58,273 bases of DNA, from positions 1-58,273 of IMG/VR virus record IMGVR_UViG_3300029309_000040; one strand, given 5' to 3'. This document shows positions 18,002 through 55,592 of the stretch, piece after piece (the stretch's first letter is position 1; each line of letters begins with the position of its first letter). The notes below the pieces were generated by a model that was given only the letters and a program-made list of their open reading frames with translations, did no database searches and was not told the DNA's origin. This stretch comes from a virus. The position numbers and the translations under genes are program-made.

Positions 18002-18009
18002 TATTTTTG
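18002..18009 (+). promoter_or_regulatory. TATTTTTG late promoter, 4 nt before ATG
   Basis: TAnnTTTG match followed by AATT and the ATG at 18014. Starts the internal-virion-protein operon with a predicted leaderless mRNA. Confidence 0.65.
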
Positions 18010-18013
18010 AATT

Positions 18014-18889
18014 ATGTCCGTACTTCTTAGTCTTATCCCTTCAGTCATAGGTACTGGCGTGGGCCTAGCCCAACAGAGCAAGCTGCGCCAAGACCTTGCT
18101 GAAAGGCAGAAGCAAGCTGAGAGTCAGTTCGATCGCAGCCTACAGGCCATCCGCGACATTAGCTTCGACCCTAGCCAAGAGCTGCGTGCAGCACGCATGT
18201 CTCAACTAGAAGCAGGGAGGGCGATTGGGGATATGGCCGCGCAGAGGACTGACGAAGCCCAAGCTAGAGCTATCGCAGCTTTGCGTGACTCCCCGAGGGC
18301 CTTGCAATCAGCAGGGACGAGAGTAATAGACAGCGCTTTGGCTGCACAGCAACAGGCTGATGTAGCTGGGACGCAACAGATTTTGGCTGCAGAGATGGGG
18401 ATGGCGCAAGACGCCGAGCAAGCACGCATGCAAGCGCTGCAGCGAGACCTGTCTTTAGAGCAGATGCTGATGAACAGGGCTGCTCAGGCTGGGGATGCTG
18501 CTCAACAGGGCATCTTCGCTAGCCAAGCGGCTGGCACAGAGGCGATTCAAGCGTTAGGAAATTTGGGCAGTCAGGCTCTACTGCAAGGAGTTGACTTCGA
18601 CGACATCGGTGGGCCGCCAGGATCAGGCAAGGTCACCGACCTAGAGAGTGGAGGTTATATCGGTGAGGAAGGTGGGGTGACTGAAGGGGAGTTTGACCAC
18701 GACACCAACAAGAAAGCCATCATCGACGAGGAGAACGGACAGAAAGAAGGGGAGCTGACAGGTGGGGAGATGGTTCTCAACCCAGAGCAGACCGACGGTA
18801 TTACCACCCTTGTAGAAAAAGGGGATGCCGAGGGATTGCTGATGTTCTTGCGTGACCTCCTCAGCCAACCGCAGTTCGAAGAAGCATGA
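18014..18889 (+). CDS. Internal virion (ejection) protein, helical
   Basis: 291 aa. The N-terminus is hydrophobic (LLSLIPSVIGTGVGLAQQ). A long Ala/Gln-rich helical region (about 25-185) is typical of ejected internal core proteins. The C-terminal tail carries GGYIGEEGGVTEGEFDHDTN and LTGGEMVLNPEQ, a tail I recall from marine phage internal proteins. It overlaps the next gene as ATGA. Probably packaged and ejected with the DNA, forming part of a trans-envelope conduit. Confidence 0.68.
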   Translation: MSVLLSLIPSVIGTGVGLAQQSKLRQDLAERQKQAESQFDRSLQAIRDISFDPSQELRAARMSQLEAGRAIGDMAAQRTDEAQARAIAALRDSPRALQSAGTRVIDSALAAQQQADVAGTQQILAAEMGMAQDAEQARMQALQRDLSLEQMLMNRAAQAGDAAQQGIFASQAAGTEAIQALGNLGSQALLQGVDFDDIGGPPGSGKVTDLESGGYIGEEGGVTEGEFDHDTNKKAIIDEENGQKEGELTGGEMVLNPEQTDGITTLVEKGDAEGLLMFLRDLLSQPQFEEA

Positions 18890-25555: not shown

Positions 25556-26071
25556 TCAGCGCTTGAATACGCTACAAACTTTCTTTGTCTCAGGGTGGAT
25601 GTATGTATTGCAGTACCCAACAAGCTGATAGCTATCTAAGGTTTGTAAATCATCAAGCACCAAGTAGGTGATGAGATCGCCCCTGCCCTTTCGGCTGTAA
25701 CACTTCTTGTACGCTTGGCTTTTGCTCACCAGACCATCAAAGTCTACGTGCTCTTTGCAGTAAGCTTTCAACTCCTCTCTGTCAACAACGACAAAAGCAG
25801 CTAGCTCGGGCATGTCAAATGCAATGCTTATAGCCTCACCAAACAACCACCCGTGATTGCCTTTTACGTTCTTCAACTCCACCCAAATCTCGTCAGGGAG
25901 GTTGTTCCCTTTGACATCGACCCCCTGATCGTCGTGCCAATAGTCAATATGCATGTGTCTGTCCTCGTCTCGTGAGGACTTCCTCACCCCAGGGTTGGCA
26001 CGCTCGTACCTTGTGGCGGAGACACCGCCATTACGCCATGACGCTTTCCTTCGTTCTTTACTGGGCTTCAT
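25556..26071 (-). CDS. Putative PD-(D/E)XK-type nuclease of the early operon
   Basis: 171 aa. The core reads HIDYWHDDQGVDVKG (about 41-55), then WVELKNVKGNHGW (63-75). The spacing D52...E65-x-K67 fits a PD-(D/E)XK nuclease core. The C-terminal half (YCNTYIHPETKKV) has no recognised motif. It is the last gene of the leftward unit, two genes from a clearer resolvase-like nuclease. Activity is inferred only from the motif; homologues appear to be common in marine phages. Confidence 0.5.
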   Translation of the reverse strand: MKPSKERRKASWRNGGVSATRYERANPGVRKSSRDEDRHMHIDYWHDDQGVDVKGNNLPDEIWVELKNVKGNHGWLFGEAISIAFDMPELAAFVVVDREELKAYCKEHVDFDGLVSKSQAYKKCYSRKGRGDLITYLVLDDLQTLDSYQLVGYCNTYIHPETKKVCSVFKR

Positions 26072-26282
26072 TGTATTGCTTCACTGCCTCTCGGATAAGG
26101 TCAGCTTCAATAAGCATCCATCGCCTGTACTCGCTGATGGTGTCGTAGACTTTGTCAGTGCTAGTTTCGACCGCGCCGCTGCTAGTATGTAATGCTTCAT
26201 ACAGCTCCCTAGACGCTTCTTGCATGCGACTGCAAGCACCGTAGTAGGTTTGGCTCAGGTCTGTTTCCGCACCGTTAGACAT
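26058..26282 (-). CDS. Small helical protein (unknown)
   Basis: 74 aa, acidic and helical (ACSRMQEASRELYEALH, ISEYRRWMLIEADLIREAVK). It overlaps the downstream gene by 14 bp and the upstream one by 8 bp, so it sits firmly in the early operon. No family is recognised; a small partner of the adjoining nucleases is possible. Confidence 0.6.
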   Translation of the reverse strand: MSNGAETDLSQTYYGACSRMQEASRELYEALHTSSGAVETSTDKVYDTISEYRRWMLIEADLIREAVKQYNEAQ

Positions 26283-26718
26283 CCGAAAGCTTCTTGATAT
26301 CCTCGATCACTTGATCAATTTGCTGTTTGTTTTTTGCAATATAAACAGCACAGGCTTTGTCATTTTCCACTAAGTGATGCAGAAAAAGCTTCCACCGCAT
26401 AGGGAAGTCGTGGTGCGAATGCAAGTACCCCTTGGTCTCTATCACCCAACTCTCGTCCTTAGCTACGAAGTCGGGGGTGTACCTGATGGGGAGCTGAACA
26501 GAGTCTGACCTGTCTGTCAAGTGCTTGCGCTTGGCCGTCATCTTCAAGTACCTGTTCGGATACCTGAACTTATCCATCAGCACATACTCCTTGCCCTCGT
26601 AGTCGAAGTCCAACCCCGCAGCACGCAGTTGGTCGTTGCAATACTTCTCTATCCCACTCTTAAACTTCCCAAGGTTCTTCTTCCGACTCGGCTTCGTCCC
26701 AGCTTTGCGCTTCTTCAT
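26275..26718 (-). CDS. Holliday-junction-resolvase-like PD-(D/E)XK endonuclease
   Basis: 147 aa, basic N-terminus, then a helix with GIEKYCNDQLRAAG. The catalytic pattern is RYTPDFVAKDESWVIETKG: D83, E94 and K96 form the PD-(D/E)XK triad, with E24 as a possible fourth ligand. The size and the PDF...ETKG layout match T7 endonuclease I-like and related phage resolvases, which cut branched DNA before packaging. It overlaps the 3' end of the primase-helicase gene by 59 bp in another frame. Confidence 0.72.
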   Translation of the reverse strand: MKKRKAGTKPSRKKNLGKFKSGIEKYCNDQLRAAGLDFDYEGKEYVLMDKFRYPNRYLKMTAKRKHLTDRSDSVQLPIRYTPDFVAKDESWVIETKGYLHSHHDFPMRWKLFLHHLVENDKACAVYIAKNKQQIDQVIEDIKKLSDV

Positions 26719-28561
26719 CTATTGGTAATTTAGATAAAAAATCATCATTCCGAGACAAAGCATGGGATAATTTGTCAATAGCAATTTCTTGTTGCTCCCC
26801 GCCAGTAAAGACTTTTGGTGGCATCAACGTCTTCTGTTTCCCCCACTCGATAAATCCTGTGTGGCTCGTATTCATTATCATTTTGAACGGTTCATCTAAA
26901 GGAGAGGGGCTACCCCCCGTCTCAGTTTCGCGAACCTTGCGGATGTGAACCTCTGTCATGCTCCTAGTGTGCGGATCGGGGGCCTGTACCTTTCGGTGTA
27001 TGGTAAGGAAGCAGTCGGCTCTGTTCACGAACTTACCCCCACCCTCAGTGTCCTCAGCAAATGGGGCGATAGGCAATCCATCATCCCCCTTCCTGCGTTG
27101 TGCTTCCGTTACAGCATGCATGTTCAACCATACAGCTACGTTGTGCTTCTTACTGAACGTTAAGAAGGCCGTAGCAGCCTCGTAGTGGTACTCGTGGGTG
27201 CTCTGCATTTCAGACTTCCGCATGTCTAGTCGAAGACTGTTGTAGGGGTCTACAAAGACTGCGTCTACATCGTGGTAGAAGTGTGTCTTTTCCATAAACA
27301 ACAGCATCTCCATGTAAGAGTAAACATGGCTAGTGCTGACGATGTAGAAGTGTTCGTTGACCCAATCGTAGCTGCACTTGCGCTCGTGATATGTCATGGC
27401 TGCTACTTTCTTATCGCAGACCATCTGCATCAACGACATTTTAATACTGCTGGTTCTGTTCTCAGCGGAGTATATCATCCACTTCCAACCGTGGCGCACA
27501 GTACAGTTTACGATGAGGTACAAGGCCGCCGTGGTCTTACCCACGTTGCTGTGACCGTTCATAATCAAGAACTCTTTCTTGTACCTGAACAACTTGTCTA
27601 ACTCTTCACTGCCTGTATCCAACCCTTGCTCGATCCTGCCCTGGGCATAGTCTTCAATCCATTGGAAGTCATCGTCAGGGTCGACGAGGAAACTCAGGTC
27701 CCCGTCTTCAATACGCATGTGCCTCTCGGCCTCCTCTTCTTGCTGTACTATGTCACGTATGGGTCGGGTCTTGCCATGCTCGATACCCTCTCGGATAGCG
27801 GTGATGGCAGAGTCCATACTGTCTATGTCTCGCTTCGATATCTCCCGAGAGAGGACGCGCACGACCTCCTCCTCCTCCATCTTACCGACAGCGATATAAC
27901 CACCACACAAGGTGGCAGCCTTAATAAGTACGTTGTGCTTCTCCCCTTCTTCTGCTCTGCGCACCATACGCGCAGCGATGTTGAGTTTGTCGTAGTCTGT
28001 GTGCTGAGGAGTGGCCTCCTGTATGGCAGCCTCAAACTTCTCCTCCGTGACAAACTTCCCGAACTTCTGACATGTCGTTTTAATTACTATGTCTGGGTCG
28101 TAAGACTCGAAGCACGCACGGCTTAGATTGATGCCGCTCTCATCGAGCTCCAACCCATACCGACTGTCGAAGTATCGGACGAGGGCGCGAAAGTGATCTC
28201 TGTGTCTTTCAGGGTGACTAATCTTTACCAGTGCCTTGACCCCATTCCCTGATGGGGAAACCCAGCAACTGTATATGTACTCGTCACGGCTTAAAAATTT
28301 CTTTACCGAGTCGACATCTACTTTATCGAAGTCGAGAACGATATAACCGCTGTGCTCTTTAATTCCAGAGTCGACGCGAGATGAAAACTCCCCACTGAAT
28401 AGTACAGCGGGGAGCTTCATTTTCTTCTCCTTGTCGCCTGATCTTACCTGCTCAACTGTGGTACGAGAGGCCCCTATCTTGATCCGTTGTAGTGCTTGTG
28501 GCACTGTGATCTTTACTGGGTTCCCCTTCTCGTATATGCTTGTGAAGATTGTAGCCTTCAT
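26660..28561 (-). CDS. Primase-helicase fusion (BT4734-like primase domain + RecA-type helicase)
   Basis: 633 aa. Residues 1-150 match BT4734-like/VirE N-terminal primase domains of Bacteroidota: LPAVLFSGEF, HSGYIVLDFD and WVSPSGNGVKALVKI with conserved Asp and Gly-Asn-Gly. A helical linker follows. The ATPase has Walker A GHSNVGKT (336-343) and Walker B AVFVDPYNSL (about 434-443), plus WLNMHAVTE as the likely sensor strand. The tail is acidic. It should prime and unwind DNA at the fork, loading host polymerase. The start codon lies 110 bp inside the preceding gene, but the N-terminal domain needs it. Confidence 0.85.
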   Translation of the reverse strand: MKATIFTSIYEKGNPVKITVPQALQRIKIGASRTTVEQVRSGDKEKKMKLPAVLFSGEFSSRVDSGIKEHSGYIVLDFDKVDVDSVKKFLSRDEYIYSCWVSPSGNGVKALVKISHPERHRDHFRALVRYFDSRYGLELDESGINLSRACFESYDPDIVIKTTCQKFGKFVTEEKFEAAIQEATPQHTDYDKLNIAARMVRRAEEGEKHNVLIKAATLCGGYIAVGKMEEEEVVRVLSREISKRDIDSMDSAITAIREGIEHGKTRPIRDIVQQEEEAERHMRIEDGDLSFLVDPDDDFQWIEDYAQGRIEQGLDTGSEELDKLFRYKKEFLIMNGHSNVGKTTAALYLIVNCTVRHGWKWMIYSAENRTSSIKMSLMQMVCDKKVAAMTYHERKCSYDWVNEHFYIVSTSHVYSYMEMLLFMEKTHFYHDVDAVFVDPYNSLRLDMRKSEMQSTHEYHYEAATAFLTFSKKHNVAVWLNMHAVTEAQRRKGDDGLPIAPFAEDTEGGGKFVNRADCFLTIHRKVQAPDPHTRSMTEVHIRKVRETETGGSPSPLDEPFKMIMNTSHTGFIEWGKQKTLMPPKVFTGGEQQEIAIDKLSHALSRNDDFLSKLPIDEEAQSWDEAESEEEPWEV

Positions 28562-28811
28562 CTCTAGCGATCATAAGCAGGATGAAGTACCCTGCCAAGT
28601 CGAGTAGGGTGTCCTCCGTTCGAGCATCCAAGCCAACGTTTTTGATGCGCTTGAGCTTGTCGTCGATGCGGATTCGTATCCCATACTCGGCATTGGCAGA
28701 AGAAAAGATGTTCAGAGGGGACAGCGCACTGTCACCGTAAGCATCATTCTTGGCTAGTAGCAGGTCTCGAACCTTGGCTGTGGCCGCTACTATCTGGTCC
28801 TTTCTTGTCAT
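28452..28811 (-). CDS. Nmad1/MazG-like nucleotide-related small protein
   Basis: 119 aa. The pattern LLLAKNDAYGDSALSPLNIF, with GIRIRIDDKLKRIKN and DTLLDLAGYFILLMIA, resembles the Nmad1/DUF1599 family, helical proteins found near nucleotide and DNA-modification genes in phages. The predicted fold is all-alpha like MazG pyrophosphohydrolases. The 3' 110 bp overlap the primase-helicase gene in another frame, and the last 30 residues look disordered (SKDHSATSTTTDQD). Substrate unknown. Confidence 0.6.
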   Translation of the reverse strand: MTRKDQIVAATAKVRDLLLAKNDAYGDSALSPLNIFSSANAEYGIRIRIDDKLKRIKNVGLDARTEDTLLDLAGYFILLMIARDEGYNLHKHIREGEPSKDHSATSTTTDQDRGLSYHS

Positions 28812-29067
28812 CCGTAGGTTGATTTTCTCTACCCAACACTGTGACGTCGAGAACTTCTGTGATGTTGACAGGCTTCTCTTTCACCTTCCTGTTGCCATAG
28901 TACTCTCGCCGTAGCCGCTGCATGGTAGTTTTATCATACAGCATGATGTCTATGGGGTCCAGGTATCGCGTGATTACCCACGCTTCGGTCGTCACTTCTC
29001 GCTTGCTACGGGTGTAGGTCAGCGTGACGGTCAGGTAGTAAATCGGATCTTTAGAACGGTAGGTCAC
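28744..29067 (-). CDS. Small early protein (unknown), GTG start
   Basis: 107 aa from a GTG that overlaps the previous gene by 17 bp. The first 65 residues look like a small beta/alpha domain (YYLTVTLTYTRSKREVTTEAW), and the rest is disordered and polar (ENQPTDDKKGPDSSGHSQG). The 3' end overlaps the next gene by 68 bp. No family is recognised. Confidence 0.5.
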   Translation of the reverse strand: MTYRSKDPIYYLTVTLTYTRSKREVTTEAWVITRYLDPIDIMLYDKTTMQRLRREYYGNRKVKEKPVNITEVLDVTVLGRENQPTDDKKGPDSSGHSQGSRPATSQE

Positions 29068-29347
29068 TGCTTACGTTCGCAGCGGCCTTCTTCTCCCGCG
29101 CTTCCTTGGCCCCTTCACTGTTGGGGTCGTAGACGCGGCAACAAGCTTTACCGCTGCGGCTCATGAACATCGTGAGGTATACGTTGCCTCCACCGCGCTC
29201 ACTCTTCTGTGTGAGATACTTGTCTAGCATCTCCTGCAACTCATGGTCTTTGAGCTTGAGCCTCCAACTCAAAAGCTCATTGTTGTCATTGAATTGGGGG
29301 TCGTCGGCCCAGCCGACCAGCACACTATCGGGCTTTCTATCAGTCAT
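29051..29347 (-). CDS. SSB-like protein with acidic-hydrophobic C-terminal tip
   Basis: 98 aa. A beta-rich core (VLVGWADDP..., LLSWRLKLK, GNVYLTMFMSRSG, ACCRVYDPNSEG) is followed by a flexible Lys/Ala linker and the end SSDLPF. The DLPF terminus copies the DDIPF tip by which bacterial SSB recruits repair and replication proteins. A single-stranded DNA-binding role fits its place between the exonuclease/annealing genes and the primase-helicase. The OB fold is inferred. It is the first gene after a TTG-N20-TACATTCG promoter. Confidence 0.58.
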   Translation of the reverse strand: MTDRKPDSVLVGWADDPQFNDNNELLSWRLKLKDHELQEMLDKYLTQKSERGGGNVYLTMFMSRSGKACCRVYDPNSEGAKEAREKKAAANVSSDLPF

Positions 29348-29377
29348 TTTCTGTGTGTTAAAGAATGTGTATGAGGA

Positions 29378-29408
29378 CGAATGTAAGCAAAGCTATTATA
29401 TACAACAA
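29378..29408 (-). promoter_or_regulatory. Early promoter TTG-N20-TACATTCG
   Basis: On the minus strand TTG (29406-29408), exactly 20 nt, then TACATTCG (29378-29385), one mismatch from TAnnTTTG. It lies in the 62-bp gap upstream of the SSB-like gene and would boost the replication genes downstream. Confidence 0.6.
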
Positions 29409-29409
29409 G

Positions 29410-30174
29410 TCAGACTTCGAATTTTGCATAGCCTTCTAATTCTGATTCAGGTGTCTGTAACCATTGCTGGATGTTATCCACTGCCTCGTTGAACTTCATC
29501 TCCCCTGCAAACAGGGTCTTGTCCGTGCATTTTACTAGCCCAGGGTAGTAGGGGTCTGTCTTCTCCTGTACTAACCAGTAGAAGTCAGACTTGCCCGTGA
29601 CCAACGTATATATGTACGCTTGGATGTCGTAGCAAAACGAGTTGACATCGTATCGGAACTTGTCCATGGATCGTGTCGACTTACTGTCCACTACATAGTC
29701 TGGGTGTAAGTAGTCGATGAACCCTTTGAGGGGGATGTCATCTACGTCAGTGTTGAACTCCACTTGTGGTTGCCCCTCGGTAAGTACAAAGTCTAGCAAC
29801 CCCTCGTCGTCAAGGCGAGTAATCATATCCTCGGCCCTCTGCCAATCGTCGCTGCTGACGATGGTGCGTCCTGACTCTGAAGCTGCGTTTTGAAAAGTTT
29901 TGACTCGGTCCTTATACTCCTTTGTGAGCTTCACATTCTTGGCCTGAATACCCTTGCTCAGTTCTTCTTCGTCCATCACGATGTATTGATCGGGGGCGAG
30001 GTTGGGGGTCAAGAGCAGACAGTCGTATAGGGAGCCGAAGCGCAATGCTTCGGACTCCTTGAACAACTCACCACGCATGTACTTCTCGAACTGTCGCATA
30101 TCCCCAAGGGCATACTTCAGTGACGAATAAGACAGGTGCGGCTTCCCGTACCGTTCTTGTAGTTGGTCTCTCAT
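29410..30174 (-). CDS. RecE-like exonuclease (PD-(D/E)XK, DUF3799 type)
   Basis: 254 aa. LSYSSLK near the start and RFGSLYDCLLLTP (about 45-57) are typical N-terminal motifs of RecE/Exo VIII-like phage exonucleases. The catalytic core is KGFIDYL (D154), DYVVDSKST (D163, K165) and YDIQAYIYTLV (Q185). It resects double-stranded ends to expose single strands for the annealing protein. It overlaps that gene's stop by 4 bp, so the two form a classic recombination pair. Confidence 0.8.
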   Translation of the reverse strand: MRDQLQERYGKPHLSYSSLKYALGDMRQFEKYMRGELFKESEALRFGSLYDCLLLTPNLAPDQYIVMDEEELSKGIQAKNVKLTKEYKDRVKTFQNAASESGRTIVSSDDWQRAEDMITRLDDEGLLDFVLTEGQPQVEFNTDVDDIPLKGFIDYLHPDYVVDSKSTRSMDKFRYDVNSFCYDIQAYIYTLVTGKSDFYWLVQEKTDPYYPGLVKCTDKTLFAGEMKFNEAVDNIQQWLQTPESELEGYAKFEV

Positions 30175-30755
30175 CTTACAAACTTGAATAGCCCAGCAAG
30201 CTGTTGCTCGGTGAGTTGCCCCCCGTACTTACTCTCAATTAAATCGTATGCCTTGCGCTTGTCCTTGGACCCTTTGACGTAGTTCACTGCCTTGTCCATG
30301 ATGTCTTCGACAGGGGCCTCCTCTTTCTTAGGAGCTGCCTTTTTCGCAGGGGCTTTCTTAGCAGGGGCCTTCTTCTTTGCAGGGGTGGGCTTCTCTTCCT
30401 GTTGCTCGATAGCCGTCTCGACCTCGTTGGCAGAAGCGATGCTGGTATCGATACCGATGCCTAAGCATGCAAGAGCGCGGCCCCAGGCAGAGGTCTCACA
30501 GTTCTCCACATAGGAGGTCTTGTTAATGTTGGAGGCGGAGCGAACCTCCATGGCGTGGCCCACGGCCCTTGTCCTCCCCTGATCGTCCACAATGCATGCG
30601 CGGCACATAGCATGCTCTGCATCCAACTCCGTGAATTCCGAGAGGATGCTCCAATTCTCGTACTTCTTCTCCTGACGGAAGAACTTGATGCGTTCGTTGA
30701 CTTCAACGTACTGCTTGCCACGGATGTTCGTGGTCTTGAATTTGTAGTTACTCAT
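30171..30755 (-). CDS. ERF/Rad52-like single-strand annealing protein
   Basis: 194 aa. The conserved block NKTSYVENCETSAWGRAL (78-95), followed by CLGIGID, is the signature of phage annealing recombinases of the ERF/Rad52-like group. After residue 118 comes a Lys/Ala/Pro tail (KKAPAKKAPAKKAAPKK), probably DNA-binding, and then a C-terminal helical domain of about 45 residues (VNYVKGSKDKRKAYDLIE...). It anneals single strands exposed by the adjacent exonuclease, supporting recombination-dependent replication and genome concatemers. Confidence 0.75.
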   Translation of the reverse strand: MSNYKFKTTNIRGKQYVEVNERIKFFRQEKKYENWSILSEFTELDAEHAMCRACIVDDQGRTRAVGHAMEVRSASNINKTSYVENCETSAWGRALACLGIGIDTSIASANEVETAIEQQEEKPTPAKKKAPAKKAPAKKAAPKKEEAPVEDIMDKAVNYVKGSKDKRKAYDLIESKYGGQLTEQQLAGLFKFVR

Positions 30756-30766
30756 GTGAATTGTAG

Positions 30767-31369
30767 TTAGAATCCGTGTTTCACTGCCCTCGATTTTAGA
30801 TTGTTGAAGGCTTCGATCAAAGGTTGGTTGTTCTCATGGTATCGCCCGACGAGCCGCTCCCCAGTCCAAATCGTGATGAACTCATCGAGCAGTTCTTGGG
30901 CCAACTTCCCTCGCTGCAGTTGTTTCTCAGTGCCATAGACTGGGACTCTAGACATATCGTGCTTCCCTGATATATCGCTAAGCCTGTCTAAACAAGCTTG
31001 GAATAGAGCAGAGAACTTCAAGTCAGTCTCACGTAGCATGTTGCACTTCTTGATGCTGTTTAGTATCGTAGCGTGATCCCTCCCTATACTTTTAGCCGTT
31101 TGTGTCAGAGTAGATTCTGGGTCTAAGCTGTGGCATAACATACTGTAGGTGTGTCGGGCGTATACCACACACCGCTTTCTAGACCTCCCCAATATCTCTG
31201 TCCCTTCTATGTTAAAGACGTCTGTAACAACGCTCATCACATCGTGACGTATTTTTTCAGAGGATATCGCATTCAAATGCACTTTGGTGGCTACAGCGGT
31301 CAACTGCTGCTGCTCTTTTTTAAGTCGCTCTGCTACAACCTTAAACTTCTTCCTTTGTGATGTACTCAT
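30767..31369 (-). CDS. Solo DnaA domain IV (replication-initiator DNA-binding) protein
   Basis: 200 aa. Residues about 36-130 align by eye to DnaA domain IV: SSEKIRHDVMSVVTDVFNI, ILGRSRKRCVVYARHTYSML, then TQTAKSIGRDHATILNSIKK. The last carries the GRDHATI signature that reads DnaA boxes (GRDHTTV in E. coli). There is no AAA+ ATPase domain; a basic coil precedes and an unassigned helical region of about 65 residues follows. It may mark the phage origin and recruit the host replisome, or compete with host DnaA. Three near-consensus DnaA boxes lie in the noncoding region at 37.1-37.5 kb. Confidence 0.82.
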   Translation of the reverse strand: MSTSQRKKFKVVAERLKKEQQQLTAVATKVHLNAISSEKIRHDVMSVVTDVFNIEGTEILGRSRKRCVVYARHTYSMLCHSLDPESTLTQTAKSIGRDHATILNSIKKCNMLRETDLKFSALFQACLDRLSDISGKHDMSRVPVYGTEKQLQRGKLAQELLDEFITIWTGERLVGRYHENNQPLIEAFNNLKSRAVKHGF

Positions 31370-31748
31370 GGTGTGTTGGTATTATGATTAGCCTACCGAA
31401 TGTGGCAATCAATTTGTGTTTGGTGTTGTCGATGTCTTCTCTCTTGTTGTCGAACCAATGCGCCCTGCGCTTTGGATTGTAGTGACAGAAGCTCTTGACA
31501 TCGGGGATGTAGTGCTGGCCTCGTGGCTCGACCACTAGGCGGTCGCACTCGACCCACGCACATACAGTTTTGTTTTCCCCCTGGAGAATCTTCTCCGCCG
31601 TACCACGTTGGTTGCGTAAGGTGGCGTTGTGCATCTCCAAGATGACGTCCTCGGGGTCGTAGTACTCTGGGTCTGTGTCGCCTAAGCGCACCTGCCAACG
31701 TTGATAGTTCGGGCCTCGGCCCAAGTGGAATCTCACTCTAGTCTTCAT
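31341..31748 (-). CDS. Early protein (unknown)
   Basis: 135 aa from the ATG at 31748, preferred because upstream codons would run through the next gene. It begins MKTRVRFHLGRGPNYQRWQV and has AEKILQGENKTVCAWVECD and WFDNKRED. The 3' end overlaps the DnaA-like gene by 29 bp. I recall similar proteins in marine phage early regions but no function. No catalytic motif. Confidence 0.6.
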   Translation of the reverse strand: MKTRVRFHLGRGPNYQRWQVRLGDTDPEYYDPEDVILEMHNATLRNQRGTAEKILQGENKTVCAWVECDRLVVEPRGQHYIPDVKSFCHYNPKRRAHWFDNKREDIDNTKHKLIATFGRLIIIPTHHEYITKEEV

Positions 31749-31926
31749 GGTTGTGTAGTTCAAGGACTTTGTTGATAGTGACAGTACCGAACTGGGTCTG
31801 CCTCTGTATGCGCTTCTTGTGGTTGACGGCATCGGTCATGTCAGAGCAGGGGATCCACCCTGAAGACATCCCCTCCCCGTCTTTACCTGAGAGGTACGCC
31901 ACTACATATTTAACTCTGTTGTTCAT
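31738..31926 (-). CDS. Small early protein (unknown)
   Basis: 62 aa with a short alpha/beta pattern (VKYVVAYLSG..., TVTINKVLELHN). It overlaps the next gene by 11 bp and the previous one by 17 bp. No family recognised. Confidence 0.55.
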   Translation of the reverse strand: MNNRVKYVVAYLSGKDGEGMSSGWIPCSDMTDAVNHKKRIQRQTQFGTVTINKVLELHNHED

Positions 31927-32206
31927 TGTACTTTTTTACTTTCTGGTTGTATTCTGAGACGTGTTGTTCTAGTGACGCTCGTAGCTCTTCGTTCTCTGGT
32001 TCATCGAGTAGTTCGTTGCTTAGCTTCAAGATGTCCGCATACAATTCTTTGAGTTTCTCTTCTGTCACTTCCTGTTTCTTTTTTTGACGGGCCTCATACC
32101 GCCTACCCGCTCGGTTGTTGGGGTTGACAAGTATTTGTGGGTTGTGCATCGCTATCGCCTTCATAGCGTTCTTGTTTGGCATGTGCTTTTTAGTGCTTCT
32201 TTTCAT
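31910..32206 (-). CDS. Small basic/helical early protein (unknown)
   Basis: 98 aa. The first 45 residues are basic (MKRSTKKHMPNKNAMKA..., RRYEARQKKKQE). The rest is a charged amphipathic helix (EKLKELYADILKLSNELLDE) that looks like a coiled coil. Possibly nucleic-acid binding. Overlaps on both sides. Confidence 0.55.
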   Translation of the reverse strand: MKRSTKKHMPNKNAMKAIAMHNPQILVNPNNRAGRRYEARQKKKQEVTEEKLKELYADILKLSNELLDEPENEELRASLEQHVSEYNQKVKKYNEQQS

Positions 32207-32393
32207 TGTGATGTGGGTTTCGGGCGGCGATACGCTCAGGGAACATGACGTCTAGCAGCTTCCTGTATCGCTTCACATATTTATCGTGTTGGTACTGGTC
32301 GTCTACGTGCCTGTCCAGTAACTCATCTAGCAAGTCCAGCAACTTATTCAGTGCCATGGCTTGTTTGATAGTCCATTTAGTTTCAGTCTTCAT
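32190..32393 (-). CDS. Small helical early protein (unknown)
   Basis: 67 aa, almost entirely helical (IKQAMALNKLLDLLDELLD...YVKRYRKLLDVMF). Leu repeats suggest a self-associating coil. No family recognised. It starts 4 bp after the HTH regulator gene, so the two are likely co-expressed. Confidence 0.55.
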   Translation of the reverse strand: MKTETKWTIKQAMALNKLLDLLDELLDRHVDDQYQHDKYVKRYRKLLDVMFPERIAARNPHHNEKKH

Positions 32394-32396
32394 CGT

Positions 32397-32828
32397 TCAT
32401 GTTGTTTCTCTGTACCACGTCTTGCCATTTCTTTCAAGCAAAGCGTCTAACTCTTTTAGTTTGCATTCTCCAACACCACGGAATCGCCCCATTTCTTTTC
32501 GGGTCAGCGAAGAGATAAACTCGAGAGTCATCTCGCCGTCACGAATGATTCGTTGTAACGAAGAAGAGAGAGAGCGAAACTCTTTCGGCCATGAGTACAC
32601 CTCAGACCCAACGATAATCCTCGACGGTCTGGGTATTGATGGTTTTGAATTTATCGGTTTGATTGGAGACCCTTTCAAAAACTCTGATAAGGTCTCTTCT
32701 GTAATGCGATAGGTTCTACTCCCTGGTAATTTGATGGCGGGGAGGTCGCCGCGCCGTATCATGTTTCGAATTGTTGCGTCTGATACTCGCAGTGTCTGGG
32801 CTACTTCTTTTGGCTTGTATAGTCTCAT
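32397..32828 (-). CDS. Excisionase-type HTH protein fused to an RpoA-CTD-like domain
   Basis: 143 aa. Residues 1-50 are a MerR/excisionase-family helix-turn-helix (YKPKEVAQTLRVSDATIRNM, then RRGDLPAIKLPGSRTYRI). After a Pro/Ser linker, residues about 85-140 read LSSSLQRIIRDGEMTLEFIS and MGRFRGVGECKLKELDALLE, which has the layout of the RNA polymerase alpha C-terminal domain (two helices, then helix-hairpin-helix with F-x-GVG-x-x-x-L-x-EL). A protein binding DNA with one end and mimicking alpha-CTD with the other could redirect host RNA polymerase. The second domain is my inference. Confidence 0.68.
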   Translation of the reverse strand: MRLYKPKEVAQTLRVSDATIRNMIRRGDLPAIKLPGSRTYRITEETLSEFLKGSPIKPINSKPSIPRPSRIIVGSEVYSWPKEFRSLSSSLQRIIRDGEMTLEFISSLTRKEMGRFRGVGECKLKELDALLERNGKTWYRETT

Positions 32829-33016
32829 CCGTTGAATGTGTTTTTGTAGGTGTCGTCGGGGCCTGTGACCAAGGTCTCCATGGGGTCGTCGTACTCCACA
32901 TCATCGAGCCGACCCTTCATTGCTTCAATGATGTCTTTCATGGTGATGTCTGATCCGTACTCTTTGTCGTGGTCAATCGACAGGGCGATAGTAAATACGG
33001 AGTTGTAGTTTTTCAT
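32825..33016 (-). CDS. Small acidic early protein (unknown)
   Basis: 63 aa, acidic (VFTIALSIDHDKEYG..., LDDVEYDDPMETLVTG). Overlaps both neighbours by 4 bp (ATGA), showing translational coupling. No family recognised. Confidence 0.55.
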   Translation of the reverse strand: MKNYNSVFTIALSIDHDKEYGSDITMKDIIEAMKGRLDDVEYDDPMETLVTGPDDTYKNTFNG

Positions 33017-33165
33017 CGGTTGTGTTTTTTGGGGTTGATGGCCTTCACCCTGCGGCGTTGGGCCTGTTGCTTTTCGTATGCCTCTCGGTCGATCTTGATT
33101 TCCACCTCCCCGCTGATGGGCTTGAGCAGTCGAGCGAAGAGTGGGTGGATGTGGTCGTCTTTCAT
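33013..33165 (-). CDS. 50-aa early protein (unknown)
   Basis: Reads MKDDHIHPLFARLLKPISG and continues with EVEIKIDREAYEKQQAQR to a basic end. It is flanked by 4-bp ATGA overlaps at both ends, which supports a real short gene in the chain. Confidence 0.55.
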   Translation of the reverse strand: MKDDHIHPLFARLLKPISGEVEIKIDREAYEKQQAQRRRVKAINPKKHNR

Positions 33166-33434
33166 TTGTTGTCGTTTGCGGCGTGGATAGCGTTCAAGTA
33201 CCTGTCATGCAAGGATTGGTATGCAGTGGACATGGCGGCCATCTTGTCCTCCACGGAGTCGAGAAAGACCCCGATGTATTCGAGGTCTGCATCGAGACCC
33301 CACCTACGGAATTTGGCGTTGTCGCTCCAGAACTCAATGAAGTCTGTCATGCGCTTCTGCGCACCCTCAATAGTGGTTTCCATAACGGGGGTGATTTTGC
33401 TCACTCTGTCCTTGTACAGTTGTTCTTTTGTCAT
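33162..33434 (-). CDS. Small helical early protein (unknown)
   Basis: 90 aa from the ATG at 33434 (MTKEQLYKDRVSK). Predicted all-helical, with TDFIEFWSDNAKFRRWGLDAD in the middle. 4-bp overlaps with both neighbours. No family recognised. Confidence 0.55.
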   Translation of the reverse strand: MTKEQLYKDRVSKITPVMETTIEGAQKRMTDFIEFWSDNAKFRRWGLDADLEYIGVFLDSVEDKMAAMSTAYQSLHDRYLNAIHAANDNK

Positions 33435-33517
33435 GTCGTGTGTGTTGCGATGATGAGTAGCAGGGTGAGCAGGAGTCCCGCCCACCCCCATGCTACGATG
33501 TCTTCAGTGTGCTTCAT
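33431..33517 (-). CDS. 28-aa single-pass membrane peptide
   Basis: Reads MKHTEDIVAWGWAGLLLTLL then LIIATHTT: one membrane helix with short polar ends. Both ends share ATGA overlaps with neighbouring genes, so the frame is held in a coupled chain and is unlikely to be chance. The role is unknown; small phage membrane peptides can block superinfection or tune host membrane enzymes. Confidence 0.55.
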   Translation of the reverse strand: MKHTEDIVAWGWAGLLLTLLLIIATHTT

Positions 33518-33804
33518 CCGTTAGGGAGGAAGGTGTCCATGATACGGTTGAAGTGGTCGAGGTAGTCAGCCTTGATGCTGTCCTCGTCTTTGTTCAAGAC
33601 TCGGAGGAACTTGCGTACCTCTTCTTCACGCGCTTGATACTCGTGGATTTGTTTCAGCAAGTTGTTGCGCTGAAGGTTCTCTTGGTCTGCCATTGTGTTT
33701 TGATTGATGTGCAATTGTACTAATTGTTTATGACTTGTGCAAGCTGTGGGTTTGTTTTTAACATTGTGTGTGTATTCGTTTCCGTCTGCTGCGTATAGTT
33801 TCAT
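33514..33804 (-). CDS. Small early protein (unknown), two possible starts
   Basis: 96 aa from 33804 (ATGA overlap with the upstream gene), or 59 aa from the internal ATG at 33693 (MADQENLQRNNLL). A full early promoter and conserved leader lie within the longer form (33700-33742), so the short form is probably the main one. The short form is helical and acidic. Confidence 0.55.
   Translation of the reverse strand: MKLYAADGNEYTHNVKNKPTACTSHKQLVQLHINQNTMADQENLQRNNLLKQIHEYQAREEEVRKFLRVLNKDEDSIKADYLDHFNRIMDTFLPNG
33700..33742 (-). promoter_or_regulatory. Early promoter TTG-N20-TACAATTG with CATCAATCAA leader
   Basis: Minus strand: TTG (33740-33742), 20 nt, TACAATTG (33712-33719), then the leader element CATCAATCAA (33700-33709), then the ATG at 33693. 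The spacer shares ACAAGTC and AACAATTA with the promoter at 35468-35511 at the same positions, so this is a duplicated promoter cassette. Confidence 0.65.
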
Positions 33805-33947
33805 CGTTCGTCGTGTTTTGTGTCAGGGTCGGGTTGCCAAGTGCAGTCTGGGCAGGGGATGAGTTTGCTTGCAGGGTCCATCTTGAACCCGTCCCATATC
33901 TCCTGCTCTCCATCGCAGGTCTCGCAGGTGTGTTCGTCTTCGTTCAT
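33801..33947 (-). CDS. 48-aa zinc-ribbon-like protein
   Basis: Starts MNEDEHTCETCDGEQEIWDG and later has IPCPDCTW. Two CxxC pairs 17-18 residues apart form a likely zinc ribbon (DnaJ-type knuckle spacing). It follows directly after a second MNED-starting small gene. Possibly a nucleic-acid- or protein-binding accessory. Confidence 0.55.
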   Translation of the reverse strand: MNEDEHTCETCDGEQEIWDGFKMDPASKLIPCPDCTWQPDPDTKHDER

Positions 33948-33948
33948 G

Positions 33949-34119
33949 TCAGTGGATTTTGTGAATTTCGATGTCATCGTAATGCAAGGACCAAAACGCC
34001 CTGCATCTCTGCGCTTCGTGTTCTGTGCTGCACAGCCCAAGTTCGAATGTCTTTCCGTTGCTCATACTATGTCTAGGTGCTACGCCTGTGACTCGGAATA
34101 AAGGTTTGTCTTCGTTCAT
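33949..34119 (-). CDS. 56-aa early protein (unknown)
   Basis: Reads MNEDKPLFRVTGVAPRHSM..., later FELGLCSTEHEAQRCRAFW. It ends one base before the zinc-ribbon gene and begins 16 bp after the methyltransferase stop. Codon use looks normal. No family recognised. Confidence 0.5.
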   Translation of the reverse strand: MNEDKPLFRVTGVAPRHSMSNGKTFELGLCSTEHEAQRCRAFWSLHYDDIEIHKIH

Positions 34120-34134
34120 GTGTGTGTGTTAAAC

Positions 34135-34761
34135 TCACAGCGTATTGGAAACGTGGAGTAAGATTTCTGTACAGAGCGCATCGGGGATTTTGCTTCGCTC
34201 GTGGTTGCCCTTCAATCCCTGGGTTCCCGTCCGTGACCCCCGTGGGGCAGCCTCATGGCACGGAGCGCCGTTCTTGCACATCGGGCGACCAACCCAAGTG
34301 CATCTCGTGCTGTGCCATATATCCGTGGGCTTCATTCGGGTGTCCCCATATTGGCAGTACGTCACTGTCGTTCGTTGGAACTGTTGGACCTCAGGGGTCT
34401 TCCTCATCATCCCCCGTGGATTCTCAATGAAGAAGTGTGATGGCTGCAAGGTTTCAATAATGTTGATTGTCTTGCGCAGTAACTCAAGGCCCAACCTAGC
34501 CGTGTCCGTTTTAGGGGTGTGAAACTCCTCCCCCCTCTCCCAATGGTGACCGATCGCGGCTACACTGAACCCCGTACAAGGTGGGGAAGCCCAAATCATA
34601 TCAGGTTTCCAAGGGATGCGGGAAAGGTCGAACTCCCGCACATCGCACACATAATCGATGCCCCCAAAGTCGGTGATGTCTGAACTGAAGACCTCCATCC
34701 CCAACCTTTCAGCGGCCTTGCCTATGCTTCGGCTACCTGCAAATAGTTCTAGCACTTTCAT
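34135..34761 (-). CDS. DNA cytosine C5-methyltransferase
   Basis: 208 aa from the ATG at 34761. Motif I LELFAGSRSIGKAAE (SAM binding, residues 4-18), motif IV ASPPCTGFS with the catalytic Cys (58-66), and motif VI FFIENPRG (about 111-118) are all present. It is shorter than usual (300 or more), so the target-recognition domain is reduced to about 60 residues rich in Arg, Gly and Cys. It probably methylates cytosines in a short site to protect phage DNA from host restriction. There is no partner restriction enzyme nearby. Confidence 0.78.
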   Translation of the reverse strand: MKVLELFAGSRSIGKAAERLGMEVFSSDITDFGGIDYVCDVREFDLSRIPWKPDMIWASPPCTGFSVAAIGHHWERGEEFHTPKTDTARLGLELLRKTINIIETLQPSHFFIENPRGMMRKTPEVQQFQRTTVTYCQYGDTRMKPTDIWHSTRCTWVGRPMCKNGAPCHEAAPRGSRTGTQGLKGNHERSKIPDALCTEILLHVSNTL

Positions 34762-34763
34762 AA

Positions 34764-35024
34764 TCAACAGCAGTTTTCATCGTAGACCTTGTCGAACTCG
34801 ATGTGATTGATGCGGCCACCATAGTATTCGAACCTCTTGAGAAATGAGTCAGTAAGATTTTTCCCCCTAGCCTTCATGCCTTCACGATAGGCCACCTCTA
34901 CTTTCTTCAAAGCATCCGTGGACGACTCTTTAGAAAAACAAGTGATCCCATACCCGAATACATCGGGCATCTGTGCCATATAGATTGTATCTGTCATGTT
35001 TTCTTGAATTAGTATGATTTTCAT
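34764..35024 (-). CDS. Small early protein (unknown)
   Basis: 86 aa from the ATG at 35024, chosen because it forms an ATGA overlap with the upstream gene. Reads MKIILIQENMTDTIYMAQMP, later SLxxREGMKARGKNL-like helical sequence and an acidic end with two cysteines. It ends 2 bp before the methyltransferase start region, so it is co-expressed. No family recognised. Confidence 0.5.
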   Translation of the reverse strand: MKIILIQENMTDTIYMAQMPDVFGYGITCFSKESSTDALKKVEVAYREGMKARGKNLTDSFLKRFEYYGGRINHIEFDKVYDENCC

Positions 35025-35275
35025 ATGTCCTTGTACCCGAATACCTTCACCTCGACTACTTCCCCATAGCTTCCGAGTATTTCGCACTTCCCAAAGAAGG
35101 GGTGTTGCGGGATATAATCGAAGATGAGAGGACCTTCGGTGTCTGGGTATGCGGAAAGGAACTGCTCGCATTGGTGTTCTTCTTGGGCGGACAGAGCAGA
35201 ATCGTCGCCGTTGATGAGGGAGGGGAGGAGGTGCTGATTAATCAGGCACACGTCTATTTCAATGAGTGTTTTCAT
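35021..35275 (-). CDS. Small acidic early protein (unknown)
   Basis: 84 aa from the ATG at 35275 (MKTLIEIDVCLINQHLLPSL). Acidic, compact alpha/beta pattern. ATGA overlap with the next gene. No family recognised. Confidence 0.5.
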   Translation of the reverse strand: MKTLIEIDVCLINQHLLPSLINGDDSALSAQEEHQCEQFLSAYPDTEGPLIFDYIPQHPFFGKCEILGSYGEVVEVKVFGYKDI

Positions 35276-35291
35276 GGCTTCTGTTGTTGAG

Positions 35292-35456
35292 TTAGTCGTC
35301 GTAGACGTTGAGGTGTACTTCGTGAATGGTCCCATCTTCACGGTCGATCACGTCCACGTCAATACCGTAAATGTCATGCGTGGACTGCACCCATACATAC
35401 AGCGGGGTAGCGTCAGGGATGCCGTCGAGGGCCTTGATGAGTTCTGATTTTGTCAT
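35292..35456 (-). CDS. 54-aa acidic early protein (unknown)
   Basis: Reads MTKSELIKALDGIPDATPLY, then VWVQSTHDIYGIDVDVID and an acidic end. It is the first gene after a strong early promoter and conserved leader, so it is probably expressed early at a high level. This kind of short acidic protein often inhibits a host factor; that is only a guess. Confidence 0.58.
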   Translation of the reverse strand: MTKSELIKALDGIPDATPLYVWVQSTHDIYGIDVDVIDREDGTIHEVHLNVYDD

Positions 35457-35467
35457 GGGTGGTGGGG

Positions 35468-35511
35468 TTGATTGATGTGGTAAAACTAATAATTGTTTCC
35501 GACTTGTCCAA
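35468..35511 (-). promoter_or_regulatory. Early promoter TTG-N20-TAGTTTTA with CATCAATCAA leader
   Basis: Minus strand: TTG (35509-35511), 20 nt containing ACAAGTC and AACAATTA, TAGTTTTA (35481-35488), then CATCAATCAA (35468-35477) 11 bases before the ATG at 35456. Nearly the same cassette as at 33700-33742. Confidence 0.68.
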
Positions 35512-35526
35512 ATTGTGCGTAAAGAA

Positions 35527-36138
35527 TCAACGTAAGACCCCCTCCCAATGTCTTTTAATCGTTACCCATATTATGGCCTGCAATTCGTAGCCCTTGAACC
35601 CTTCCCTCTTAGCTAGTCGGGCCGTGAGCCGTTCGATTCTTCTGTACTGCATCGCAGTGGGGGACTCTTGCACCGTGACCCGCTTGAGGGATGAAGTCAG
35701 GCAGGCCCGCATATGCCACTTGTCCACCGTGACGTGATCGTCGCTGTTCTCCCCAACGTTCATCGCGAAAGCGTACGTTTTCGGAGACTTGCGTAGGATC
35801 GACTCATCACCCTTAGCAATTGCAAAGGCTTTCCTCTTGTTCGCATCATAGGTGCAAACCTTCACGTCATCGGGTCCGAGTCCATCACGCACAGCTTGCA
35901 GCACTGTGAATGCATCGATTTTGTTACGTTCCCATTTATTATTCGGGGATAGGGCAGAGATGACCCCTGCGGCAACTTTGCGCGATACGTTGAATTCAAC
36001 CGACAGATACCTTGCATAATCCATCGCCTCACGATACCAAGCCCGACCCGTTTCAATGTCCTCGGGTGTTGACTCCGCCAACCATCCGCGAAGGTTACGC
36101 AGGATGGTGCCATCTTTTGTGATAGTCGCGGTTTTCAT
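35527..36138 (-). CDS. Early protein with HhH/glycosylase-like pattern (unknown)
   Basis: 203 aa from the ATG at 36138 (MKTATITKDGTILRNLRGWL), chosen for its ATGA overlap with the upstream gene. VAAGVISALSPNNKWERNKI, then KTYAFAMNVGENS and HVTVDKWHMRAC, resembles a phage family (DUF7178-like) with the helical layout of helix-hairpin-helix DNA glycosylases. The link to base excision is weak; no catalytic Lys/Asp pair can be assigned with confidence. Confidence 0.5.
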   Translation of the reverse strand: MKTATITKDGTILRNLRGWLAESTPEDIETGRAWYREAMDYARYLSVEFNVSRKVAAGVISALSPNNKWERNKIDAFTVLQAVRDGLGPDDVKVCTYDANKRKAFAIAKGDESILRKSPKTYAFAMNVGENSDDHVTVDKWHMRACLTSSLKRVTVQESPTAMQYRRIERLTARLAKREGFKGYELQAIIWVTIKRHWEGVLR

Positions 36139-36332
36139 AACCCTAACTGTTTGTTTAAGTGAGTTATAAAGGTGTCCTTCCGCAGTTGCGATGCAGTCCA
36201 ACAGTAGAACCCAATCTCACAGCTTCGTGGACCAGCCCAGGGCAAGGTCGGGGCCGTCTCCGTTTGGTGTTCGCTGATATCCTTAAGCGCCTGAATTCGG
36301 GCCGCGCTGATGCCCCCTCTGTAATTGCTCAT
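36135..36332 (-). CDS. Small early protein (unknown)
   Basis: 65 aa (MSNYRGGISAARIQALKDIS...). ATGA overlap with both neighbours supports a real gene. No family recognised. Confidence 0.5.
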   Translation of the reverse strand: MSNYRGGISAARIQALKDISEHQTETAPTLPWAGPRSCEIGFYCWTASQLRKDTFITHLNKQLGL

Positions 36333-36685
36333 GACTCTGTCTTGATGGTGAATTCGATACAGGCTGCAGTTTCATGTAAAGAGAGGTCTGCATCCGAGGG
36401 GTTAGCCTCCGTCATGTACACGTCATCGATGGCAACTTGGCTGTGTGGGTGCATCTGCCCAATCTCGAACAAGGCCCGAGAAATTCCAAGCAACCTGTAA
36501 TACCAACCGCAATCTGCCGTCCCCTCGAACACCAACAGGCGTGCCTTTGCATACCCGCCTCGTCTCTGTACTTCTAGTCGGTACGTCCCTAACTCAGCGT
36601 CTACCGTTACATGGTTTCGTATCTGCTCATTAATTGTGTGGATCACTATATCCAAAGAGTGCGCTATGTTGAATTTTATTTTCAT
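36329..36685 (-). CDS. Early protein (unknown)
   Basis: 118 aa, alpha/beta (MKIKFNIAHSLDIVIHTINE, LEVQRRGGYAKARLLVFEG, QVAIDDVYMTEANPSD). 4-bp overlap with the next gene. It is among the first genes of the leftward unit, so an early host-takeover role is likely, but no motif says which. Confidence 0.55.
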   Translation of the reverse strand: MKIKFNIAHSLDIVIHTINEQIRNHVTVDAELGTYRLEVQRRGGYAKARLLVFEGTADCGWYYRLLGISRALFEIGQMHPHSQVAIDDVYMTEANPSDADLSLHETAACIEFTIKTES

Positions 36686-36690
36686 CTGTC

Positions 36691-36747
36691 CTAGAAATTA
36701 TAGTTGGCTGCGATAGCGTTGTAGTTGTAATCTGACACTAGCTTCAT
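36691..36747 (-). CDS. 18-aa micro-ORF (candidate)
   Basis: Reads MKLVSDYNYNAIAANYNF and exactly fills the 73-bp gap between two early genes. Frame and position are suggestive, but the length gives little statistical support. Confidence 0.3.
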   Translation of the reverse strand: MKLVSDYNYNAIAANYNF

Positions 36748-36758
36748 GTCGGTTTTAT

Positions 36759-37028
36759 TTACTTGATCGGGGTGGCGAAGTCAGGGGTGGCAAGGGTGTA
36801 TCCGTCCTGCGTGTCGTGCAGTACGACAGCGCTTAGGCCGATTCCCTGTGTGTGTAGATAGTCGCCCGCTTGGTTCACGATGTCACCGATTTCGTGGTTG
36901 TACGGGAGCCAAACAGTGTCGCCCCTGCGCATGTCCTTGATTCGGATGCGAACACCCTTGGTGTTCGTAGGGCCGTAAAAACGTACGTGGATGGCGCGAT
37001 AGCGCAGAAGGGTGTTGTGAAAGTCCAT
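36759..37028 (-). CDS. First early gene, small beta-rich protein (unknown)
   Basis: 89 aa from the ATG at 37028; an upstream TTG would lie inside the promoter box. Reads MDFHNTLLRYRAIHVRFYGP, then GVRIRIKDMRRGDTVWLPYN and a hydrophobic middle. It is first in the leftward unit, behind its own -7 box and the conserved CATCAATCAA leader. Very early expression is expected. No family recognised. Confidence 0.6.
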   Translation of the reverse strand: MDFHNTLLRYRAIHVRFYGPTNTKGVRIRIKDMRRGDTVWLPYNHEIGDIVNQAGDYLHTQGIGLSAVVLHDTQDGYTLATPDFATPIK

Positions 37029-37038: not shown

Positions 37039-37060
37039 TTGATTGATGCCGACAAAGATA
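37039..37060 (-). promoter_or_regulatory. Leading early promoter TATCTTTG with CATCAATCAA leader
   Basis: Minus strand: TATCTTTG (37053-37060), a perfect TAnnTTTG, followed by CATCAATCAA (37039-37048) and then AAAACACA-ATG at 37028. There is no TTG at -33, so an activator or a different -33 may be used. It heads the whole leftward unit. Confidence 0.65.
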
Positions 37061-42414: not shown

Positions 42415-42422
42415 TATATTTG
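42415..42422 (+). promoter_or_regulatory. TATATTTG late promoter, 4 nt before ATG
   Basis: Exact box, then TAGT and the ATG at 42427. Predicted leaderless transcript. Confidence 0.68.
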
Positions 42423-42426
42423 TAGT

Positions 42427-42897
42427 ATGGCAACACTAACAGTATCTCTGACTGAAGAGCTAGAACTGAACGGGAAGAATCGCGGGGGTGAGCATACGTT
42501 CAGTATCTCAAGCGTAACTCAGGCATACACCCGTGTGGTGACGTGCCCAGCCAATAACGATACCACCATAGCGACATTCCAGACGGCAGTGCATACTGCA
42601 GACAACGCCATCGATCTAGAAGACACCAAGTACATACGAGTAACGAACCTAGATTCTAGTAACGAAGTCGTGCTTTCCCTTCAGATATCTAACGATGAAG
42701 ACGGGGCGGCTGACGGGAGCACCAGCATTTTGCTGGCTGCAGGGCAGAGCTACATGATGGGGGTACCTCACGAAGGCATCGCGTGTGACGACGATGCTGC
42801 CACCCCGATTACTGACGCTGCATTGCACGATCTAGAGTCTATCATTGTAGACCCTAAGACCAACTCTGTTAGCGTAGAGGTCTTCGTAGCTAGCTGA
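42427..42897 (+). CDS. All-beta structural protein, related to the decoration type
   Basis: 156 aa. Begins MATLTVSLTEELELNG, like the MAT-x-x-x-LTL starts at 2902 and 3306, and has strands such as YIRVTNLDSSNEVVLSLQIS and QSYMMGVPHEGI. Likely a virion surface or tail component of the same fold. It has its own leaderless promoter, so it is probably abundant. Confidence 0.55.
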   Translation: MATLTVSLTEELELNGKNRGGEHTFSISSVTQAYTRVVTCPANNDTTIATFQTAVHTADNAIDLEDTKYIRVTNLDSSNEVVLSLQISNDEDGAADGSTSILLAAGQSYMMGVPHEGIACDDDAATPITDAALHDLESIIVDPKTNSVSVEVFVAS

Positions 42898-55077: not shown

Positions 55078-55134
55078 ATGGCCACAGTATATCTCCCCGT
55101 AAAGCCCATCGAGGGCATGGAAAGCATTTATTAA
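55078..55134 (+). CDS. 18-codon micro-ORF, truncated copy of the next gene's start
   Basis: Reads MATVYLPVKPIEGMESIY. Its first eight residues match MATIYLPV of the next gene. Its TAA lies in the next promoter box. Either a relic of duplication or a tiny peptide. Confidence 0.35.
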   Translation: MATVYLPVKPIEGMESIY

Positions 55135-55139: not shown

Positions 55140-55143
55140 CAAC

Positions 55144-55588: not shown

Positions 55589-55592
55589 TACT

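Follow-up and report, generated by a model that had tools for sequence, protein, structure and literature searches.

A 10-nt leader at the predicted 5′ end of early transcripts in a phage of probable Bacteroidota origin and its relatives

The window analyzed in this study is the whole of an IMG/VR virus record (IMGVR_UViG_3300029309_000040; 58,273 bp). At three minus-strand sites of its presumed early block, the 10-nt leader CATCAATCAA lies between a sigma-ABfr-type -7 box (TAnnTTTG) and the start codon of a small gene, and the same arrangement recurs in related phages. The three sites are probably promoters for a host sigma factor, at which CATCAATCAA would serve as a transcript-start element and would, in addition, give the mRNA an unstructured 5′ end. 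We found no published description of this leader in the literature.

The terminase, portal, and primase of the window resemble those of Flavobacterium, Cellulophaga, and Maribacter phages, and the host is therefore very probably a member of the Bacteroidota. No close match to the window was found among the deposited phages searched. The structural genes are on the plus strand, and the minus-strand block at 25.5 to 37.0 kb is termed early, as its gene content and gene order suggest (Table 1). A 200-aa protein of this block (30767-31369, minus strand) carries the DnaA C-terminal, DnaA-box-binding domain (PF08299, E 4e-13), with the rest of DnaA missing; in phage MW202828, too, small ORFs bear the names dnaA and chromosomal replication initiation protein. 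Another early protein (32397-32828, minus strand) has an N-terminal HTH_17 domain, and the best PDB matches of its C-terminal stretch are mostly RNA polymerase alpha C-terminal domains (weak, E 0.12-1.3), which makes it a possible candidate for a phage transcription regulator. The predicted structure of the latter protein (pLDDT 50) was too poor for use and was discarded.

Table 1. Positions of the leader sites, the presumed early block, and the putative late leaderless-type promoters in the window
Feature	Coordinates	Strand	Basis or remark
Presumed early block	25556..37028	-	primase/helicase, PD-(D/E)XK exonuclease (DUF3799), DnaA-C protein, many small ORFs
Site 1, -33 element TTG (CTTG)	33740..33742	-	sequence; 20 nt ahead of the TA of the -7 box
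Site 1, -7 box TACAATTG	33712..33719	-	sequence; one mismatch to TAnnTTTG
Site 1, leader CATCAATCAA	33700..33709	-	predicted +1, A at 33708; 15-nt leader to ATG at 33693
First gene past site 1	33514..33693	-	59 aa, no family; 64% identity to the gene past a G002 cassette
Site 2, -33 element TTG (TTTG)	35509..35511	-	sequence
Site 2, -7 box TAGTTTTA	35481..35488	-	sequence; final G of TAnnTTTG replaced by A
Site 2, leader CATCAATCAA	35468..35477	-	predicted +1, A at 35476; 20-nt leader to ATG at 35456
First gene past site 2	35292..35456	-	54 aa, no family
Site 3 (lead early promoter), -7 box TATCTTTG	37053..37060	-	perfect match to TAnnTTTG
Site 3, leader CATCAATCAA	37039..37048	-	predicted +1, A at 37047; 19-nt leader to ATG at 37028
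First early-block gene past site 3	36759..37028	-	89 aa
Putative late leaderless-type promoter TATATTTG-TAAT-ATG	7956..7970	+	directly past a hairpin and T-run
Putative late leaderless-type promoter TATATTTG-TAATT-ATG	10157..10172	+	5 nt from box to ATG; directly past a hairpin and T-run
Putative late leaderless-type promoter TATTTTTG-AATT-ATG	18002..18016	+	
Putative late leaderless-type promoter TATATTTG-TAGT-ATG	42415..42429	+	
Putative late leaderless-type promoter TAAATTTG-CAAC-ATG	55132..55146	+	
Putative late leaderless-type promoter TATATTTG-TACT-ATG	55581..55595	+	

CATCAATCAA occurs four times in the window, against 0.11 copies expected from dinucleotide shuffles. Three copies are those of sites 1 to 3; the fourth (16158-16167, plus strand) sits within a 1742-aa structural ORF (11776-17004) and was dismissed as a coding chance. 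Repetition of a 10-mer is not rare per se, since in 38.8% of Markov-1 surrogates, some 10-mer is present at least three times within a 12-kb block. What is not due to chance is that all three minus-strand copies are located between a -7 box and an ATG, 6 to 11 nt ahead of the latter, and that this arrangement is repeated in independent relatives. Site 1 has the layout cTTG-N20-TACAATTG-CA-CATCAATCAA-AACACA-ATG, site 2 has the layout tTTG-N20-TAGTTTTA-CCA-CATCAATCAA-CCCCACCACCC-ATG, and site 3 has the layout TATCTTTG-TCGG-CATCAATCAA-TGAAAACACA-ATG. A -33 TTG (criterion, TTG or TTTG at 18 to 22 nt) is present at sites 1 and 2, and site 3 has no exact -33 TTG. Of the three -7 boxes, only that of site 3 is perfect; in the relatives, most copies are perfect.

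A preliminary description of this DNA had proposed a duplicated early promoter cassette, which is supported: the sites are of the sigma-ABfr type, they are copied within the genome, and the same cassette is found in relatives. Sites 1 and 2 do share TTG, ACAAGTC, AACAATTA, and CACATCAATCAA, with exactly 20 nt from TTG to the TA box, and they are 79% identical over the 34 nt upstream. The copies had also been placed at the same position after the -7 box; all three are indeed closely downstream of it, but the distance is 2, 3, and 4 nt at sites 1, 2, and 3, respectively, and thus is not strictly constant. An imperfect palindrome, GAATTGTG(G)AATTC, is located between the -33 and -7 positions of the lead early promoters in the window (37061-37080, minus strand) and in relatives G003 and G008, and is itself a possible operator.

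Over nine copies, the distance from box to leader is 3.1 ± 0.6 nt, and that from leader to ATG is 10.4 ± 3.3 nt (range, 5 to 15 nt). Within two mismatches, none of the 26 remaining early gene starts in the window has the leader; two of these starts were placed by hand and are uncertain. Anchoring to the promoter rather than to the ATG, together with absence from the other early starts, argues that CATCAATCAA is an element of the transcript start and not a ribosome site. In Flavobacterium johnsoniae, transcription starts 4 to 5 nt past TAnnTTTG, with a G at -5 (PMC6847099). In this register, the C of the leader would be -1 and the following A would be +1, so that the early mRNAs are predicted to begin with 5′-AUCAAUCAA; in Bacteroides thetaiotaomicron, the most common leader is 23 nt long (PMC7366714). 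The late promoters described below agree with the early ones in register, i.e., an A is the fifth base past the box in both (NNN-C-A-TCAATCAA versus NNNN-A-TG), which lends independent support to the predicted early +1.

The predicted mRNA 5′ ends fold at only -0.5 to -1.2 kcal/mol, and a structured leader was rejected on these energies. No match up to E = 1 was obtained with the covariance models of Rfam 15 in the region 32000-38500. The 20 nt ahead of the three ATGs contain 3% G, versus 26% genome-wide, and CATCAATCAA itself has no G and hence no Shine-Dalgarno core. G-poor leaders are general in Bacteroidota, so the composition of this leader is no evidence by itself, and only its sequence is special. 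The same features could nevertheless be read in favor of a leader that acts only as RNA at the ribosome, as a standby site or as an S1 or Kozak-like context. The leaders are near the start codon, and ahead of two of the three start codons, positions -3 and -6 are both A; initiation in Bacteroidota depends on low structure and on A at these positions (PMC6847099). However, the distance to the ATG varies over 10 nt while that to the -7 box is nearly fixed, and other early starts, which need translation too, are A/C-rich and do without the leader. We therefore consider a pure translation enhancer quite improbable. Of the earlier proposal that the leader is a 5′ UTR signal for early translation, its place at the extreme 5′ end of the predicted mRNA is supported, and the role in translation is weakened by the anchoring to the -7 box and by at least three mismatches before each of the 26 other starts.

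Relatives with the leader were found among IMG/VR phages G001-G005, G008, and G017, whose terminases are 72 to 90% identical and whose early genes are collinear. G002 has four cassettes of the form GTTAAAAAGTGTTAAA-N-CTTGACAAC-N-TAnnTTTG-N3-CATCAATCAA-ATG. In G003/G008 and in G004/G005/G017, the leader is located at the first early-block promoter with a different upstream sequence (AAATAAATTTGGAATTGT...), and the second promoters of G003, G008, and G005 have degenerate leaders (CATCAAACAA, CATCGAACAA, and TGTCAATCAA). The expectation that close relatives share the element thus holds for G002, G003, G004, G005, G008, and G017, but the leader was not found in G001 and is absent from most of the wider clade. 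In a sample of the latter (160 loci, 2.04 Mb), which was picked via the exonuclease and the terminase and not via the leader, no leader past a promoter was found outside G002, and ordinary sigma-ABfr promoters with G-poor leaders were common. It was likewise not found after a promoter in the examined stretches of phi38:1, elemoF, and Manatee Spring phage MW202828. Judged from these genomes, the element is restricted to a few lineages. Its absence from G001 and from almost the entire wider clade marks it as lineage-specific and not required, and this absence, together with the degenerate second promoters, indicates that it is not essential.

The leader could also be a by-product of copying, i.e., a part of recently duplicated cassettes that is too young to have diverged and has no function of its own. 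G002 carries at least four cassettes, the second copies show drift, and the site 2 gene has a 94% identical counterpart in locus L443 without the cassette, from which it follows that cassettes come and go. The pattern of conservation, on the other hand, is uneven. Among the four G002 copies, the invariant columns amount to 10/10 in the leader, 0/3 in the discriminator, and 1/12 in the 12 nt past the leader, with 8/17 in the spacer, 5/8 in the -7 box, 7/8 in the -33 block, and 15/16 in the upstream AT-rich block. The same holds for the G002 orthologue of the site 1 promoter (Table 1), in which all 10 leader bases but only 2 of the next 12 nt are conserved. An unchanged leader beside diverged flanks, in paralogous and orthologous copies alike, argues against simple recent copying, and the leader also persists beside unrelated upstream sequences, so we regard this explanation as very unlikely. 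The upstream block GTTAAAAAGTGTTAAA (the L006/G002 cassettes and L233-L268) is also found ahead of TTG...TAnnTTTG in numerous further phage contigs of Bacteroidota type from which the leader is missing, and it is a candidate UP-like element in its own right.

A sequence that is repeated at several promoters of one genome, fixed in position over +1, and more constant in the window than the -7 box might alternatively be, as the preliminary description had also suggested, the DNA target of a regulator from the phage or the host, which would turn the early promoters off (or on) during infection. The early block does encode a protein, the HTH_17 protein described above, that could be such a regulator. 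This protein has no detectable homologue in the leader-bearing relatives, however, and its similarity in the wider clade is at best weak and confined to the HTH. CATCAATCAA is not palindromic, and as an operator its direct repeat, (ATCA)2, would be short at 10 bp. Operators and stoperators are bound by a phage repressor and often occur off promoters as well; away from promoters, CATCAATCAA was seen in this group only as a coding chance. In G002, conservation of the GTTAAAAAGTGTTAAA block and of the -33 block is almost as strong, and either would be an equally good candidate site. An operator is thus rather unlikely, and we retain the transcript-start element as the preferred reading of CATCAATCAA.

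Beyond the clade, the strict pattern TTG-N17-22-TAnnTTTG-N1-5-CATCAATCAA matched 108 stretches in IMG/VR. Many of these matches are coding (e.g., within the peptide YICRHQSKG), and most of them were taken out by the ORF filter. After near-duplicates and coding matches were dropped, 21 of the 32 noncoding matches had exactly N3, counts that hinge on the ORF filter and on the 80% redundancy cut; the coding matches were flat in spacing. Two permuted leaders starting with CA gave 25 and 40 stretches, of which 1 and 0, respectively, were noncoding at N3; as a plain word, CATCAATCAA is also more frequent than its permutations. When related families were merged by eye, about seven independent contexts were left, one of which is a gut family. 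The excess is real and modest in its number of origins. A looser scan (TTTG-N1-6-CATCAATCAA, with no further constraint) was abandoned since chance matches swamp it.

In Bacteroidota chromosomes, 15 of the 21 noncoding matches were at N3 among the matches listed, and the combination of promoter and leader is located ahead of ordinary genes. Because N3 is favored here too, the leader is not exclusive to phages. When the -33 requirement was lifted, the spacing in 395 Bacteroidota genomes was flat (9/85 at N3; permuted word, 0/22). None of 77 sampled host promoters has CATCAA at the start, and a general host start signal was rejected on this basis. Gut-type contigs (L131, L154, L160, L205, L230, L126, L141, L224, and similar ones) carry TAnnTTTGCAnCATCAATCAATCACGnAGCAAAnnTA, in which the -7 box and a downstream GCAAAnnTA form inverted repeats in which the variable bases often vary in concert. 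In these contigs, ATCAATCA is often followed by TGATTGAT ahead of small early-type genes, and the Rfam DUF2693-FD RNA (RF02926) is present in loci L154 and L230.

When all TAHHTTTG boxes of the window were listed, a second class of putative promoters surfaced: late-strand boxes are often only 4 to 5 nt ahead of an ATG (Table 1). In the clade sample (L441-L600), box-to-ATG distances peak sharply at 4 nt, with 83 unique sites versus 1 at 3 nt and 14 at 5 nt; control boxes gave 4 and 0, and host DNA gave 1 in 0.8 Mb. Grouped by protein, the 4-nt sites fall into 33 independent clusters; other spacings mostly give 1 to 8 (9 at 5 nt). A -33 TTG accompanies 1 of these 33 leaderless-type clusters, compared with 15 of the 47 whose box and ATG are 14 to 30 nt apart (P = 0.0014). 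If transcription starts in the same register as in the early class, the A of the ATG is +1, and the late-gene mRNAs should therefore be leaderless. Bacterial leaderless genes likewise have a promoter box at a fixed distance, with the A of the ATG as +1 (BMC Genomics 2011, PMC3160421). In that survey, which sought Pribnow-type boxes and not TAnnTTTG, they were noted in 1 of 37 Bacteroidetes/Chlorobi genomes (PMC3160421). As a tentative possibility, the clade may mark two gene classes at the mRNA 5′ end: early mRNAs, made from -33/-7 promoters, would begin with AUCAAUCAA... or some other short leader, and late mRNAs, made from TATATTTG promoters that lack the -33 element, with the AUG itself. 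Translation might thereby be switched, for example, if initiation were altered to favor leaderless late mRNAs over leadered host and early mRNAs.

The early sites resemble the sigma-ABfr promoters of Bacteroidota (TTTG at -33 and TAnnTTTG at -7; PMC6847099, PMC7366714) in the -33 TTG and its spacing (sites 1 and 2) and in the TAnnTTTG box (with one mismatch each at sites 1 and 2), and the predicted start is at the same distance downstream; the phage leaders are short, near the length typical of B. thetaiotaomicron. They differ from the host promoters in the fixed 10-nt start sequence, which is specific to these cassettes. For a word repeated at early gene starts, the closest published analogy is the SAS/ESAS of cluster K mycobacteriophages, which are located 3 to 7 bp from the ATG and hold a Shine-Dalgarno core (PMC3203893). 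Both are short asymmetric words that are repeated at gene starts in the nonstructural half of the genome and are kept across lineages with different genes. Unlike SAS, CATCAATCAA is anchored to the promoter and begins at the predicted +1, with a variable distance to the ATG. We did not class it as an SAS because both ATG anchoring and a Shine-Dalgarno core are missing. Conservation of the first transcribed bases within a repeated promoter is also a feature of the T7 class III promoters, which start with GGGAGA. T7 promoters are read by the phage polymerase, whereas the sites in the window carry host sigma-ABfr boxes instead.

Taken as a transcript-start element, CATCAATCAA would work as follows. 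The host primary sigma factor would read the three early promoters (sigma-ABfr type: -33 TTG, 20 to 21 nt, -7 TAnnTTTG), and CATCAATCAA would span the transcription start, with the boundary C/ATCAATCAA at 33708, 35476, and 37047. It would be a lineage-specific initially transcribed sequence, or 5′-end leader, that is kept with the cassette when the latter is copied to new genes. Its most likely action would be at the transcript start itself, where it would fix the start site and make initiation and escape efficient. The resulting 5′ end, which is short, nearly G-free, and unstructured, may then be loaded at once by Bacteroidota ribosomes, which initiate without Shine-Dalgarno pairing.

Gene timing in Bacteroidota phages, and the start of translation without Shine-Dalgarno sites, have been little studied. 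The analysis of one genome leads here to a testable rule, namely, that its two putative promoter classes can be told apart by the -33 element and by the 5′ end of the mRNA. For expression in Bacteroidota, the early leader offers a candidate part, and from the late class, extensive use of leaderless mRNA is predicted in a phylum in which the hosts rarely employ it.
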